Below, in pieces: positions 32,622 through 42,826 of a DNA stretch of 64,000 nt. Below the pieces are notes generated by a model that was not told the origin of the DNA, did no database searches, and was given only the letters and a program-made list of their open reading frames with translations. The stretch comes from Methylobacter sp. Its GTDB lineage: Bacteria; Pseudomonadota; Gammaproteobacteria; Methylococcales; Methylomonadaceae. Position 1 is the stretch's first letter. Each line of letters opens with the position of its first letter. The position numbers and the translations under genes were made by a program. The DNA is taken from NCBI RefSeq assembly GCF_030680395.1, contig NZ_JAUXVR010000041.1:1-64000 (forward strand), read 5' to 3'.

Positions 32622-32637
32622 TGGCACAATGGTTGCT
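32622..32637 (+). promoter_or_regulatory. Sigma-54 (-24/-12) promoter of nifE
   Basis: TGGCACAATGGTTGCT is a perfect TGGCAC-N5-TTGCT with GG-N10-GC spacing. The transcript would start near 32648, leaving a leader of only about 24 bases before the nifE ATG. Confidence 0.9.
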
Positions 32638-37722: not shown

Positions 37723-38222
37723 TGAGTTCAGTTGCGTTTGTAGAAGAACGGGTGATGTTCAGCCCGAATATGCCCGCCGAAGTTAATAGTCTTCTGCAAG
37801 CGGCTGTGGCCGCAAGCTCGGTTGATCAAAGCCGCGCAGAAAATCTGTTTTTACAGGCGCAATCGCTGGATAGCCATTGTTTGCAAACCTATTTTGCGCT
37901 GTATAAGTTTTATTTCTTCCAAAAACGTCTCGTTGATGCGGAACGGATTGTTTTGGCAGGTCTGGAGGAGTCGGCAAAACAAGGCGGCTTTCCCAATGAT
38001 TATCGTAGACTGGTTCAAAGCCGGCCAAAATGGAACTTGTATGCCAATGACAGCACCTTGTTTTATTTGTATACACTGAAAGCCTTAGCATTTATCAAGC
38101 TCAGGCAAGGTTTCACCACTGACGCGCAGCTTGTTTTGTCGCACCTGCAACAACTGGACCCCAAAGACCTTTCGGGCGCGTCAGTCATTATGGATTTAGC
38201 CGCGGGGATTACCGAGTCATGA
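37722..38222 (+). CDS. Nif-cluster hypothetical protein, TPR-like, 166 aa
   Basis: Cytosolic protein without recognised enzymatic motifs. The pattern of paired helices (about 18-75: AEVNSLLQAAVAASSVDQSR, LFLQAQSLDSHCLQTYFALYK) and later YTLKALAFIKLRQGFTTDAQ resembles tetratricopeptide-type repeats, suggesting a protein-binding role. It overlaps its neighbours on both sides (1 bp and 4 bp), so it belongs to the same translational unit as the 2Fe-2S ferredoxin and the 124-aa protein. I do not recognise a named family. Confidence 0.75.
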   Translation: MSSVAFVEERVMFSPNMPAEVNSLLQAAVAASSVDQSRAENLFLQAQSLDSHCLQTYFALYKFYFFQKRLVDAERIVLAGLEESAKQGGFPNDYRRLVQSRPKWNLYANDSTLFYLYTLKALAFIKLRQGFTTDAQLVLSHLQQLDPKDLSGASVIMDLAAGITES

Positions 38223-38593
38223 ATTTATCCGAACACATCGCACTAAACCGTCCGCTGGCTGAATGCGTCTGCCAGCGGCTGACTGAAGAAATCAACGAAC
38301 TGGGCTTTACTGAAGCGGACATTCGACACTATCCACGCTACGATGACGCCGATTTTGTACTCATCAAAGACCCTTATGCCGGAGCGGATAACCTAGCCTG
38401 CTATTGGTACGATGAGCCTAAAAAACAGCGCATCGGCAGGCTCCAGTTTAATAGCGACGGCACCTTTTACGCAGAGTACGATGTTGTCAAGCCGCATCCG
38501 ACCAAGACCCGACGCTTTGTTGAAGGTGTCACTGCCTGGGGCAAAGCCGAACAGATTAAATCCGAACCCAAGTTGCTGGAAATGCCCGAATAA
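38219..38593 (+). CDS. Nif-cluster hypothetical protein, 124 aa
   Basis: Cytosolic protein, start MNLSEHIALNRPLAECVCQR overlapping the previous stop by 4 bp (ATGA). No membrane segment, no cysteine cluster. The middle looks like beta-strands (DDADFVLIKDPYAGADNLAC, RIGRLQFNSDGTFYAEYDV). I do not recognise it. Overlap with neighbours shows it is expressed with the ferredoxin and DUF364 genes, so a part in nitrogenase maturation or protection is plausible but unproven. Confidence 0.75.
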   Translation: MNLSEHIALNRPLAECVCQRLTEEINELGFTEADIRHYPRYDDADFVLIKDPYAGADNLACYWYDEPKKQRIGRLQFNSDGTFYAEYDVVKPHPTKTRRFVEGVTAWGKAEQIKSEPKLLEMPE

Positions 38594-38598
38594 CCGCT

Positions 38599-39576
38599 AT
38601 GGAAAATCCGGCGCGAATTTATGAGCTGCTGCTGGATTATGCCGGTAGCGATACGCAAGTCTCTCAATTAAACATCGGCCTGGTTTGGACGGTTTGTGAA
38701 GCTCGGCATATCGGCATGGCGATGAGTCCCGGCATCCCGACCCGTACCTTATCGTGGCCGGGTACCTTGGCCGGTAAAACATTGTCGGAATTGGCCGGAT
38801 GGATTACCGACTGGGAGCCTTACAAGGCGACGGTTGCCATGGCGGCTATTAATTGCAGCTTAAACCGTTATGAACTGCCGTCAGGCATAACCCTGCTGCC
38901 TGCGCCCGACAGCGCCAATCTGGCTGTTTTCGATCATTTCCTACCCCGGCTGCAAGGCAAAAAAGTCGTTGTTATCGGCCGTTATCCGGGCATTGAACGC
39001 TATGCCGACCAGGTCAATCTCAGCATCATCGAACGGCAGCCCATGCCGGGCGATTATCCCGATCCCGCCTGCGAATTTTTATTGCCCGATGCCGACTGGG
39101 TATTTTTAACGGCCAGTTCCATTACCAATAAAACCTTCCCGCGTCTGGCCGAGCTTGCTCAGCACGCCACTACCGTATTGATGGGCCCGACCGTGCCGTG
39201 GTTGCCCGAACTGCACGAATTCGCTATCGATTATCTGGCAGGCGTTGAAGTTGTCGATCCGGTAAAACTGTATCAAACTGCGGCGGAAGGCGGCGGCGTA
39301 CGCATTTTTGACGACGCGGTACGTTACCGGATTGTCGATTTAACGCCCGGTAACAGCATGATGTGGCTGAAGGGCCAGATAGCTCAGGACTATACAGACA
39401 GGCAGCTACTAACCCTGGCGATGGAGCGATGGTACAGTACCGGCAACAAAGGACGGTTTCCTGAATTTAACCGGCTCAATCGGATAACAACCAAGCTTTC
39501 GCGTATGGATAGCAGTTATAAGCGGCTGTGGGATGTCCATAGCAACGCGCTTCCAAATCAAATTAACGCAAGCTGA
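38599..39576 (+). CDS. DUF4213/DUF364 domain protein (putative heavy-metal chelation)
   Basis: 325 residues: an N-terminal DUF4213 region (about 5-95, LVWTVCEARHIGMAMSP) and a DUF364 domain (about 110-235, VVVIGRYPGIERY, FLTASSITNKTFPRL and LMGPTVPWLPEL). Family members are linked by genome context to molybdenum, tungsten and iron handling, but no reaction is established. The C-terminal 80 residues (LTPGNSMMWLKGQIAQDYTD) are an extension outside the usual domain. It starts 5 bp after the 124-aa gene and ends the first nif transcription unit before a large repeat region. A link to metal supply for FeMo-co is an inference. Confidence 0.85.
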   Translation: MENPARIYELLLDYAGSDTQVSQLNIGLVWTVCEARHIGMAMSPGIPTRTLSWPGTLAGKTLSELAGWITDWEPYKATVAMAAINCSLNRYELPSGITLLPAPDSANLAVFDHFLPRLQGKKVVVIGRYPGIERYADQVNLSIIERQPMPGDYPDPACEFLLPDADWVFLTASSITNKTFPRLAELAQHATTVLMGPTVPWLPELHEFAIDYLAGVEVVDPVKLYQTAAEGGGVRIFDDAVRYRIVDLTPGNSMMWLKGQIAQDYTDRQLLTLAMERWYSTGNKGRFPEFNRLNRITTKLSRMDSSYKRLWDVHSNALPNQINAS

Positions 39577-39977: not shown

Positions 39978-39993
39978 TGTAAGGTTCCCGACA
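39978..39993 (+). promoter_or_regulatory. NifA upstream activator sequence (TGT-N10-ACA)
   Basis: TGTAAGGTTCCCGACA fits the consensus and lies 117 bp upstream of the -24/-12 promoter at 40110, a normal distance for NifA looping. Confidence 0.6.
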
Positions 39994-40109
39994 ATTTCTT
40001 ACAAAATCAATTTGCGTTGTTGAATTAAATATCAATAACCACCCCGATCAAACGGCTAAAAAACGCCCATCCATCTGTTTTAAAAGAAAAACAAAGCAAC
40101 ACTCCAACA

Positions 40110-40125
40110 TGGCATAAACCCTGCT
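40110..40125 (+). promoter_or_regulatory. Sigma-54 promoter of the 189-aa/AAA+ pair
   Basis: TGGCATAAACCCTGCT keeps GG-N10-GC and most consensus bases (TGGCAY, TGCT). It is 52 bp before the next start codon. Confidence 0.7.
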
Positions 40126-40176
40126 TTATCAAGGTTAATACTAAAATTTACACCTTACCCATCCGGAGAAAAAACA

Positions 40177-40746
40177 ATGCTACTAGAAACCTATCAAGAT
40201 AAAGGCTTATTAACTGTCACTTTGGTCAACGGTCAAACCGGCACTGCGGGTGTTTATGCTTATCGCGGCGACCTGGTTTTAAAAGAAGGATCTCTGCGCG
40301 AAGGCTCAACAACCGACCGCAGACCGCCCGAGGCTCTGTTGATTCATTCAGCCTTTATCGTTGAAAACGACAAGATCAAATTTATCAACGGCCTGTTGCC
40401 TACGCTCGATTTACTGCCCGTTCTTGTCGAAAAATATAAAGCCGATCTTGCCGAAGACTGCATCGCTTTAATCTACGTGGAAAATATCGGTAAAGGCTTG
40501 CAGGTTGAACTGGAAGGCCTTACCTATAAATTAATGCCTTTCAAACAAGGCCTGGTATGGAATGAATTGCTCGAAGAACTGTATATTGAGAAAAGCGAGC
40601 TGAAAGGTCAATCCGCTGAAGATAAGGTCGCCATCGCTTATGCAGCCGCCAAATCGTATAACCCGAAAACGCCGCTCGTTTCATTTGCCGAAGCCGAAGA
40701 CAACACTATCGAAGTAATTAAAGACGCGGCGGTAGGCGCAATTTAA
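40177..40746 (+). CDS. Unknown protein, 189 aa, under a nif-type promoter
   Basis: Soluble cytosolic protein with no cysteine clusters, P-loop or membrane helix. The N-terminal part looks beta-rich (LLTVTLVNGQTGTAGVYAYR, GDLVLKEGSLREGSTTDRRP) and the second half helical and acidic. A strong GGAG site precedes the ATG. A sigma-54 promoter and a NifA-type site lie directly upstream, so expression should follow nitrogen fixation. It is 146 bp before the AAA+ ATPase gene on the same strand. I do not recognise a family. A substrate adaptor for the ATPase is one possible reading. Confidence 0.8.
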   Translation: MLLETYQDKGLLTVTLVNGQTGTAGVYAYRGDLVLKEGSLREGSTTDRRPPEALLIHSAFIVENDKIKFINGLLPTLDLLPVLVEKYKADLAEDCIALIYVENIGKGLQVELEGLTYKLMPFKQGLVWNELLEELYIEKSELKGQSAEDKVAIAYAAAKSYNPKTPLVSFAEAEDNTIEVIKDAAVGAI

Positions 40747-40812
40747 GATTGTGATTACTGCCCTTCTGAACCCCCTGCTTAAAAGATAATTTTCCGCTTT
40801 TCACTGATGCTG

Positions 40813-40848
40813 ACAACACTGCCGGGTTTAAATGCCTGTCAGTGTTGT
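40813..40848 (+). promoter_or_regulatory. 9-bp perfect stem-loop between the 189-aa and AAA+ genes
   Basis: ACAACACTG (40813-40821) and CAGTGTTGT (40840-40848) pair across an 18-base loop. No T-tract follows, so it is more likely a processing or stability element, or a weak attenuator, than a terminator. Confidence 0.5.
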
Positions 40849-40892
40849 ATAGCTACCCGCTTCATTATTCAACGCATTGATAGAGAGATCCT

Positions 40893-42620
40893 ATGAAACT
40901 TCAGATTGAGCGCAAGTATGTCGAAGCCATGGTGAGTGAGTTTCCGGGGCTGGCGGCATTGAATGATCAATTGCGTTTCGGCAATAAAGCCGAGGTGTCA
41001 TTCAAGCAACTGTCCAACACCGAGCTAAGTTTTTTACAGACGCTTTACAAAAATGCCGGGACTGAAATGCAAGGCCATGTCGCGTTGCTTTCAACGCTGC
41101 AAAAAGCGATCAACGACGATACCGTCAAGTTTGAAGAACACGACCTGGAACTGCTGCTACCCGCAATTGCCCGTTATCTTATCAATGACGCGATACGCGG
41201 TTGGTTATTCCAGACCAACGTTGCCGGAAAACCGATGGCCTATGTGGTCACCCGGCTGGACTTTACGCCTTCGGGCGAAGAGGAAACCGGACGGGTCACG
41301 CTTGAACTCAAAGCCAACGCCAAAGGCAAAGTGGCGACCTCAACCGTTACCATCCGTGCCAGGGACATTGCCGACAAAACGATTACAGAAATTTTCGTCG
41401 CCAAAGGCTTTCTTAAAGAAACGCCCGAGCTTATCGCCACTTACGACGATGCCGCCGGACGTTATTTCGAATGGTGCGGCCAGTCCGGCACACAGTTTTT
41501 AGGCAAAGGCACTGGATTTTATGCGGAAGACCCGACCGCTTCGCACCGCAGCACCGATTGGGCGCGCAAGGATGTTGTGGTTTTGTCTACCGAAGGCGGA
41601 ACTGCGCGTCTGGTGAATGATGAAAGCATCCTCAGCGAACGCGCCTTATCGGTAGATGCCAAAGGCGACATTCTTGCCAAGTATTTACGCAAAGCCGCCA
41701 AAAGCAACCGCTACGACCTGAAGATCGAAAATGAAGTTGAAGCGTCGGAAAAAGAAATTCCCAAAGGTTTATTTACCGAACTACCGGTACATTGCTACCT
41801 GCTGATGTTTCATCTGGAGCTGCATCATCATTTATGGGTGCATGTGAATGACATCAAGCCTTATCGCTATCAACCGGAATTAAAACAAAAACTGATTCTG
41901 CGCGAAGAACAGATCGACCTGATCGACATCCTTACCGCCGAAATGGATGTCCTGATGGATGACATTATCGAAGGCAAGTCGGGCGGCACCACGGTGCTGT
42001 GCGCCGGGCCTGCCGGAGTGGGTAAAACTTTAACTGCCGAAGTTTATTCCGAAATTATCAAGCGCCCGCTGTACCGGGTGCATTCCGGGCAATTGGGACT
42101 CAATGTCGGCGAGATGGAAAAAGCCTTGAAAGACGTGTTAACCCGCGCTCAGCGCTGGGGCGCGGTGATGCTGATCGACGAGGCCGATGTTTACATCAAG
42201 CGGCGCGACAATAACATCGCGATGAATGCGGTCGTCGGGGTATTTCTCAGGCTGCTTGAATATTTCAACGGCTTGCTGTTTTTGACCACCAATCGTGTCG
42301 ATGACATTGACGAAGCCATTGTTTCCCGTTGTATCGCGCTGATTAAGTATTATCCGCCGGACAGCGATGCGCGCCGCCAAATCTGGCAGGTCATGATCGA
42401 TCAATTCGAGCTGGACGTTGATGCTGCTTTAATTAATCAATTAGTCGACAGTTTCCCGGAAGCGACAGGACGCGACATTAAAGGGCTTTCCAAACTGGTC
42501 GCAAAGTTTTGTCAGCACAAAAAAGCAACGCCGACTTTGGATGTATTCAAACGTTGTTCAATATTCCGGGGCATGGATCTGGAAAAATCCGCAGAAAGCG
42601 CACTAAATCAGGGCAGTTAA
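40893..42620 (+). CDS. AAA+ ATPase in the nif region, novel N-terminal half
   Basis: 575-residue cytosolic ATPase. The C-terminal AAA+ module (about 340-560) has Walker A GPAGVGKT (372-379), Walker B VMLIDEAD (425-432), sensor 1 LFLTTNR, an Arg in VSRCIAL at the finger position, and sensor 2 GRDIKGLSK. The single AAA core resembles Rubisco-activase/CbbX and proteasomal-type remodellers more than MoxR or NtrC proteins; there is no sigma-54-contact GAFTGA loop. The first 330 residues match nothing I know. It follows the NifA-type-promoter gene and ends the unit, with a terminator 170 bp on. Remodelling of a nitrogenase component is an inference. Confidence 0.85.
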   Translation: MKLQIERKYVEAMVSEFPGLAALNDQLRFGNKAEVSFKQLSNTELSFLQTLYKNAGTEMQGHVALLSTLQKAINDDTVKFEEHDLELLLPAIARYLINDAIRGWLFQTNVAGKPMAYVVTRLDFTPSGEEETGRVTLELKANAKGKVATSTVTIRARDIADKTITEIFVAKGFLKETPELIATYDDAAGRYFEWCGQSGTQFLGKGTGFYAEDPTASHRSTDWARKDVVVLSTEGGTARLVNDESILSERALSVDAKGDILAKYLRKAAKSNRYDLKIENEVEASEKEIPKGLFTELPVHCYLLMFHLELHHHLWVHVNDIKPYRYQPELKQKLILREEQIDLIDILTAEMDVLMDDIIEGKSGGTTVLCAGPAGVGKTLTAEVYSEIIKRPLYRVHSGQLGLNVGEMEKALKDVLTRAQRWGAVMLIDEADVYIKRRDNNIAMNAVVGVFLRLLEYFNGLLFLTTNRVDDIDEAIVSRCIALIKYYPPDSDARRQIWQVMIDQFELDVDAALINQLVDSFPEATGRDIKGLSKLVAKFCQHKKATPTLDVFKRCSIFRGMDLEKSAESALNQGS

Positions 42621-42791
42621 ACAACATAAATAGCTGCGTTTGGTGCAAATATTACATTGCTTATTATTTAAATCGAGGCTGTAAATAGTAACCCATTGAA
42701 ATATAAAATAATTAAATATTGGCACTATTACTGCATAATAATTTACATAGTTAGTTTCGTTTGCATGGCCTTTCCTGAGCGTTGTACCTTC

Positions 42792-42826
42792 AGCGTCCTA
42801 TTTTCTCGACTAGGGCGCTTTTTTTT
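42792..42826 (+). terminator. Rho-independent terminator
   Basis: AGCGTCCTA (42792-42800) pairs with TAGGGCGCT (42811-42819) with one G-T wobble, followed by an eight-T run. It ends the 189-aa/AAA+ unit and insulates it from the rhodanese promoter. Confidence 0.85.

Follow-up and report, generated by a model that had tools for sequence, protein, structure and literature searches.

The window analysed here is a 64,000-nucleotide (64 kb) stretch of contig NZ_JAUXVR010000041.1 of the methane-eating bacterium Methylobacter sp. Its + strand carries a gene for an AAA+ ATPase of 575 residues (AAA575; open reading frame at 40893..42620), preceded by a gene for a protein of 189 residues (p189; open reading frame at 40177..40746). 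By its promoter, which combines a TGT-N10-ACA site with a -24/-12 element, the p189-AAA575 locus is predicted to belong to the NifA/sigma-54 (nif) regulon. Both protein families keep nearly to diazotrophs, and most diazotrophs of a phylum-wide genome sample have neither of them. We propose, giving the idea an even chance, that in part of the diazotrophic Pseudomonadota AAA575 serves the nif regulon as a dedicated remodelling ATPase of the AAA+ class, induced by NifA. That its client lies in the nitrogenase system is likewise a matter of about even odds, and it is probable that both proteins assist nitrogen fixation and have been overlooked in this role.

Control by NifA and sigma-54

A NifA upstream activator site (UAS; TGTAAGGTTCCCGACA, TGT-N10-ACA) is located at 39978..39993 on the + strand, and 132 bp past it, at 40110..40125 (+), lies a sigma-54 -24/-12 promoter (TGGCATAAACCCTGCT, GG-N10-GC). 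The activator site is also found upstream of p189 in the close relatives L005, L006 and L007, in which the 16 bases of the promoter are identical. When both strands of the 64 kb were searched for sigma-54-like sites with a score of at least 18.5, only two of the 22 sites had a TGT-N10-ACA sequence 30-260 bp upstream, namely the site at 40110 before p189 and one at 32622..32637 (+) before nifE (32660). The latter, with its UAS 60 bp upstream, served as an internal positive control.

The same pair of sites recurs in other genomes. A genome-contig search provided 249 AAA575 loci, the best 80 of which (67-98% identity) form our far sample, and the upstream regions of 74 of these could be scored after loci with cut genes (L034, L041 and L055) or with less than 300 bp of upstream sequence had been dropped. 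The region taken was that before AAA575, or before p189 where p189 directly precedes AAA575. The pair was present in 18 of the 74 regions, i.e. in 7 of 47 and, with p189 directly upstream, in 11 of 27, a count that takes in related loci and is therefore not one of independent cases. Dinucleotide-shuffled sequences gave on average 0.04 and 0.02 pairs for the two sets (about 0.06 in total), and the reverse complements 0 and 1. The thresholds applied revealed no pair in the other 56 regions, where some genes are internal to longer operons. A further 12 loci were scored, and eight of them have the pair (L127, L138, L140, L141, L143, L144, L152 and L153, with L138 and L140 being near-copies); the start codon is misplaced in two of the four that lack it.

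Published expression data point in the same direction. According to the part of PMC3916325 covered here, eight genes of Azoarcus BH72 have RpoN and NifA sites, are regulated by NifA and are up-regulated under N2 fixation, and one of these is azo3791. The NifA effect on azo3791 would be a positive one, to judge from the statement in the same part of that paper that site-bearing genes under negative NifA control are unresponsive to N2. We consider azo3791 to be the AAA575 orthologue by synteny with a related genome, G603. Its match to the species is based on the BH72 primer azo0805for, of which it alone among nine genomes tested contains an exact copy. In G603 the gene order is hupL, hydrogenase cytochrome b, a helix-turn-helix (HTH) gene, glutathione peroxidase, AAA575 (on the opposite strand), the maturation protease gene hupD and hupF; AAA575 (L185, 8204-9898) is embedded in the uptake-hydrogenase cluster in antiparallel orientation, flanked by glutathione peroxidase on one side and hupD on the other. 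As HupL and HupF of BH72 are azo3787 and azo3793 in Table 1 of PMC3534401 (likewise covered in part), the fifth gene of this order would be azo3791, provided that the HTH gene is counted in BH72.

For p189 the counterparts are Bphy_7752 and Bphy_7807 of Paraburkholderia phymatum. Among the values viewed in PMC8305402, these two genes have the lowest log2 changes in nodules of a nifA mutant (-11.54 and -11.11), compared in the same table to -10.05 for nifD (Bphy_7754) and -7.40 for nifH (Bphy_7753). An ankyrin gene, Bphy_7751, is listed there with -7.11. The NifA/sigma-54 control that the earlier note had read from the window is thus supported by the rarity of such sites in the window, by their recurrence in relatives and by the NifA-dependent expression of orthologues in the covered parts of PMC3916325 and PMC8305402.

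Occurrence in nitrogen-fixing genomes

The near sample consisted of 101 relatives of the window's genome from the same genus, family or order, with a match to the nifD family in 48 and a match over the family cut-off in 44. A full-length nif-type AAA575 (at least 66% identity) was found in 33 of the 101, and every one of the 33 matches the nifD family, with 31 of them exceeding its cut-off; the remaining two, G013 and G026, are genomes of 80% and 77% completeness. This count drops a 38% copy and a 71% fragment in G006, fragments in G002 and G044, and all weaker hits to AAA proteins, from E 5e-82 upwards. AAA575 is therefore present in 33 of 48 relatives with and in none of 53 without nifD (Fisher 2.5e-15). 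The p189 gene was found in 45 relatives, 44 with a nifD-family match and one without (G012, 81% complete; Fisher 9e-23); both P values overstate independence, because the genomes are related.

In the far sample, 75 of the 80 genomes have a nifD-family match (E up to 1e-60, which may be NifE alone), and 69 of them are over the nifD cut-off (34/40 and 35/40 in the two halves). The copy closest to the window's ATPase among these 80 loci is that of Methylobacter tundripaludum SV96, with 98% identity. At least 39 of the 80 loci have a core nif marker nearby, which is a lower bound because the set of nif queries was small, and no fixed AAA575 neighbours were found in most loci. The Methylobacter copy lies beside nifENX and the Methylococcus copy in an isc-nifV-nifW block.

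In a sample of 398 Pseudomonadota genomes, 41 have nifD over the cut-off. The AAA575 family (E up to 1e-25) occurs in eight of the 398, with five members of the nif type and three of another type. Four nif-type members are in genomes with nifD (G000, G176, G106 and G110), and the three genomes with the other type (G349, G355 and G460) have no nifD over the cut-off. The fifth nif-type member is a broken gene in G168 (L128, L134), where nifD has no match; this may be a trace of nif loss. A profile search found p189 in 13 of the 398 genomes, all 13 among the 41 with nifD. Occurrence of the pair in genomes without nif genes, named by the earlier note as the observation that would speak against a nif role, is accordingly rare, the nif clade of AAA575 being nearly restricted to diazotrophs (33/33 and 75/80) and p189 occurring with nifD in 13 of 13 cases. 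In the Azonexus family there were 26 matches out of 199; five of the 26 resemble the non-nif type, and p189 was present in all 17 of the 26 that were checked for it. Our impression is that the named AAA575 carriers are mostly aerobic or microaerobic.

The AAA575 family

The only Pfam family above its cut-off in AAA575 is PF00004 (AAA), matching residues 368-480 with 62.9 bits versus a cut-off of 21.2 (E 5.4e-17); other Pfam matches are only of the AAA type. The Walker A motif GPAGVGKT occupies residues 372-379 and the Walker B motif VMLIDEAD residues 425-432, and the full AAA+ core described in the earlier note is thereby corroborated. In an alignment of 60 members of the nif clade, with a mean column identity of 77%, residues G377, K378, T379, D429, E430, N467, R468, R479 and R527 are invariant. 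Since the catalytic residues are invariant in all 60, AAA575 should be a working ATPase, as predicted from the alignment. The pore-loop position 404 is Asn in 53 members and Ser in seven, and aromatic in none, and modules of the CDC48 type align Trp or Tyr nearby.

The N-terminal half, from residue 1 to about residue 330, could not be placed in Pfam or the PDB, and a PDB sequence search with residues 1-326 gave no solved relative (best E 0.32). In this respect the earlier note was right, but the half is not specific to nif, as plasmids and the phages AR9 and PBS1 encode proteins with the same complete architecture. The AF2 model of AAA575 has a mean pLDDT of 61.6 and is usable for about residues 1-200, the AAA core being poor. 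With this poor model, Foldseek found no match in the PDB at E <= 0.001. In BFVD it matched AAA ATPases of giant viruses over its entire length (A0A481Z0A9, E 5e-9; A0A3G4ZLA5, E 8e-9) at a root-mean-square deviation of 16-21, which, as the model is weak and the deviation large, is only a lead, hinting at an old ATPase family across the domains of life.

Plasmid records matching AAA575 number 157 (E up to 1e-30); 151 of them cover at least 80% of the query, and 156 are below 60% identity, the sole record at or above 60% being that of Methylococcus EFPC2. Relatives with about 35.5% identity over 97% of the length are present in the Bacillus phages PBS1, AR9 and Goe21, with a value of 35.6% for AR9 and PBS1, and a relative in a Rhizobium phage shows a DUF7025 match under the Pfam cut-off (21.6 versus 27 bits). 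Non-nif members L114-L118, L125 and L192 reside on large plasmids and in a jumbo phage, their annotations going no further than 'ATP-binding protein', 'AAA ATPase' or 'protease', and one non-nif member is located near type I-F Cas genes. Scans of viral contigs with both AAA575 and p189 confirmed no relatives of either. In a tree of 70 rows, the 55 rows labelled as nif-type by identity are split from the 15 others by a branch with an SH-aLRT value of 100, and the nif clade, which includes the window's AAA575, spans Gamma-, Beta- and Alphaproteobacteria. The tree was made with a quick method (LG+G4) from 70 of 104 rows, leaving out the broken L128, L154 and L155, the piece L134, the repeats L135 and L136 and a random part of the close relatives, and carries a long-branch warning that includes a Methylibium plasmid copy beside the nif clade.

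Several better-known identities were considered for AAA575 and rejected. It is not a sigma-54 activator (bacterial enhancer-binding protein), since the translation has no GAFTGA and no activator domain exceeds its Pfam cut-off, in agreement with the earlier note. A protease of the FtsH or Lon type is contradicted by the lack of any peptidase family in Pfam at E up to 1 and by FtsH models scoring 19.5 versus 1008 bits. The models for proteasome-activating nucleotidase and CDC48 reach only 39.7 versus 500 bits and 36.6 versus 802.65, and pore loop 1 has no aromatic residue. For the anti-phage protein IteA/IetA the NCBIfam score is 42.4 versus 510 bits, and the best PADLOC IetA match (E 5.4e-15) covers residues 331-559 only.

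The p189 family

No match of note was found for p189 in Pfam, NCBIfam, PHROG or the PDB, or by fold; the best were E 0.021 in NCBIfam (14.1 versus 399 bits), E 0.14 in PHROG and E 0.021 for a PDB fold (TM 0.28). The AF2 model is a confident one (pLDDT 92.6). Bphy_7752 (BPHY_RS38250) and Bphy_7807 (BPHY_RS38505), which are identical to each other at 199 of 202 residues, belong to the p189 family with 25.7% identity (E 2e-5), and differ from p189 in having a longer N-terminus and a C-terminal ENRPV.

Both P. phymatum copies are directly divergent from nifH. On the plasmids of Methylococcus EFPC2 and P. sprentiae, p189 is found beside a truncated haemoglobin gene, again divergent from nifH. The Cupriavidus taiwanensis plasmid has p189 in the vicinity of nod genes and followed by an ankyrin gene; the 18 kb viewed there include no annotated nifH. 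At the loci L122, L123, L124, L175 and L186, p189 is accompanied by a gene for truncated haemoglobin, ankyrin or both, and in four of these five it is divergent from nifH. The address beside nifH in several lineages suggests a place for p189 at nitrogenase.

Possible functions and their alternatives

In the mechanism that we propose, the AAA core of AAA575 would hydrolyse ATP, probably as a ring, and the N-terminal half of about 330 residues would recognise the client. BCS1 and Rubisco activase re-shape or take apart a folded client or complex. AAA575 may likewise be a stand-alone remodeller that re-shapes or dismantles a folded client or complex rather than threading it for degradation, because the lack of both a peptidase domain and an aromatic residue in pore loop 1 makes remodelling the likelier mode. 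The client would most likely be a metalloprotein of the nitrogenase system, i.e. the MoFe protein, NifEN, or an Fe-S or cofactor assembly protein. In this scheme p189 would be a separate small protein of the nif regulon that shares the promoter here and is not an obligate subunit.

Several findings weigh against this proposal. AAA575 has no known client, partner or activity, and the AF2 model of its AAA core is poor. A full-length gene is missing from 15 of the 48 nifD-positive relatives, and remnants in G002, G006 and G044 indicate that nif-positive genomes lose it; it is also absent from 37 of the 41 nifD genomes of the phylum sample, and therefore nitrogen fixation does not generally require it. 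Five of the 80 genomes of the far sample, all metagenome-assembled by their titles (L034, L041, L050, L054 and L065), have no nifD-family match, and G168, with its broken gene, likewise lacks nifD. The position inside a hydrogenase cluster in the Azoarcus-type genome G603 means that the client may not be nitrogenase, and the non-nif members on plasmids and jumbo phages imply that the ancestral job was not nif-related.

The alternative that fares best, albeit still an unlikely one, is that AAA575 repairs or protects against oxidative or nitric oxide (NO) damage during N2 fixation, with general Fe-S or redox proteins and not nitrogenase as clients. A glutathione S-transferase gene is near 14 of 47 loci (within 1.5 kb in eight) and SelO near seven of 47 (within 1.5 kb in four); glutaredoxin/BolA is found in Methylococcus, the AAA575 gene of the Azoarcus-type genome adjoins glutathione peroxidase, and on two of the four named plasmids p189 adjoins a truncated haemoglobin gene. 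However, any one of these genes is missing from most loci, and no O2 or NO phenotype is known.

AAA575 could also be a passenger of mobile elements, a plasmid or jumbo-phage ATPase captured by a NifA promoter and without a role in nitrogen fixation. This would fit the 157 plasmid records and phages AR9 and PBS1 that carry the family, and the patchy presence and decayed copies among nif-positive relatives, but we regard it as improbable in view of the single clade across Gamma-, Beta- and Alphaproteobacteria, the 77% mean column identity and invariant catalytic residues of its 60 aligned members, and the recurrence of the promoter sites in distant members. Yet less credible is that AAA575 serves the maturation of a NifA-co-regulated uptake hydrogenase (or other metalloenzyme) instead of nitrogenase: the antiparallel position in the hup cluster of the Azoarcus-type genome, between glutathione peroxidase and hupD, speaks for it, and the core nif markers at no fewer than 39 of the 80 loci speak against it, as do the Methylobacter and Methylococcus copies beside nifENX or in the isc-nifV-nifW block.

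The earlier note had seen in p189 the partner of the ATPase, but an obligate two-protein machine is very improbable: although p189 is directly upstream of AAA575 in 27 of 74 regions and present in 31 of the 33 AAA575-carrying relatives and in 54 of 64 AAA575 genomes tested, it is lacking in the other ten (including Ferrovum G533), 13 nifD-positive relatives have p189 without a full-length AAA575, and where the two are separate both just track nif. The 64 genomes leave aside those of L005-L034, L038, L041 and L055, and in one more genome, G168, AAA575 is broken and p189 absent. In the named plasmid records covered, p189 is not close to any ATPase of the nif type. In Methylococcus EFPC2, AAA575 is far from p189, in the isc-nifV-nifW block; in G603 the two genes lie at about 1.30 Mb (p189) and 4.24 Mb (AAA575); and as EFPC2 is the sole plasmid match of at least 60%, the P. 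phymatum plasmids have no nif-type ATPase. With the two genes so often apart, the partnership is not supported as an obligate one, and their association arises because both follow nif. Adjacency of p189 and AAA575 is mostly a feature of the Methylobacter type.

If AAA575 is indeed a remodelling ATPase of the nif regulon, a bolder version, to which we give little credence, would make it a nitrogenase activase of aerobic diazotrophs: by analogy with Rubisco activase it would re-open or repair MoFe protein or NifEN that is damaged, inhibited or loaded with the wrong metal, with p189 as a second, independent protector at nitrogenase. We know of no such repair machine for nitrogenase. A role of the two proteins in assembly, protection or repair of nitrogenase, if true, bears on the difficulty of running this enzyme in aerobic hosts, and would make both genes candidates for gene sets transferring nitrogen fixation. 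Two conserved proteins of the nif regulon, one of them an energy-using AAA+ machine, have no assigned function, although counterparts of both (an orthologue of AAA575 and homologues of p189) are already listed without a name in published NifA-regulon data, and the tie of the ATPase to diazotrophs is precise enough for a single gene deletion to test it.

Transcript structure and gene surroundings

The earlier note had described a self-contained NifA/sigma-54 unit closed by a rho-independent terminator. The sites, both reading frames and all their coordinates hold. The 146-bp gap between p189 and AAA575 (40747..40892, +) contains a strong RNA hairpin without a T-run at 40809-40853, with a folding z of -4.75 and none of 200 shuffles equally stable, so that the unit is possibly not one transcript. 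This hairpin may be a processing or attenuation element. In several relatives the same gap contains hairpins of different sequence. The terminator, at about 42792..42826 (+), consists of a visible stem, present in both the minimum free energy and the centroid fold, followed by eight T; its 71-nt surroundings show no folding advantage over shuffled sequence (z -0.60), 47 of 200 shuffles being equally stable, and the call therefore rests on stem and T-run by eye.

The window's genome is 4.36 Mb in size, with the window on contig C18 and nifD on contig C46. In the window, nifE and nifX are at or near the family-model cut-offs, and nifN, DUF269, DUF683 and ferredoxin are labelled from reading and position, not from a family model. 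Between the nif genes and position 39576 there are genes for a thioredoxin-like 2Fe-2S protein, a TPR-like protein (weak, under the cut-off) and, both inside the nif island, an unnamed 124-residue protein (p124, 38219-38593) and a DUF364/DUF4213 'heavy-metal chelation' protein (38599-39576). A DUF364 gene is near nif genes in Methylococcus EFPC2 too. Downstream of AAA575 are a rhodanese, a reading frame labelled ankyrin-like from reading, and a NafY-like protein that contains the domains DIMCO_N and Nitro_FeMo-Co. Sigma-54-like sites at 42720 and 42875 (score 20.0) precede this block, with no TGT-N10-ACA at 30-260 bp upstream.

Comparison with known systems

The AAA core and the wider architecture of AAA575 are already in databases, without characterisation as far as found. 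What is new, as far as searches of open-licence PMC show, is the nif-bound clade, its NifA promoter, and azo3791 and Bphy_7752/Bphy_7807 as its published counterparts and those of p189. In the open-licence PMC listings and abstracts covered, no described nif AAA ATPase or p189 was found beyond the azo3791 and Bphy data, and the covered parts of PMC8467165 and PMC12727197 add nothing further on either protein.

The nearest architectural relatives are outside the nif clade. PHROG 29662 ('ATP-dependent protease', phages AR9 and PBS1) matches AAA575 residues 48-562 with its positions 52-546 of 548, i.e. nearly full-length (E 5.4e-105), but consists of phage genes, and its protease label is unsupported, as the AR9 protein has only AAA-type Pfam domains. 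Plasmid proteins named 'ATP-binding protein' in Pseudomonas, Providencia, Xanthomonas, Vibrio and others are of similar length and order of parts, with 33-41% identity among the matches listed, and no nif genes are annotated in six of their neighbourhoods. The best solved relatives are classical AAA proteins of the CDC48/AFG2 type (5vc7, 7wd3), which have the PF00004 core in common with AAA575; AAA575 differs in having Asn or Ser for the aromatic pore-loop residue, a single SRC for the GR-F-D stretch and a different N-terminal half. CbbX and Rubisco activase, the analogy drawn in the earlier note, are absent by name among the NCBIfam matches listed and the best 60 of 118 PDB matches, no dedicated comparison and no search for Rubisco genes having been made, and the likeness to AAA575 would be one of mechanism only. 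The closest published counterpart is azo3791 of Azoarcus olearius BH72, with its RpoN and NifA sites, NifA regulation and N2 induction. Its printed name in the covered part of PMC3916325 is only 'conserved hypothetical ATPase', and the related genome G603 has its copy in the hup cluster, with p189 elsewhere.

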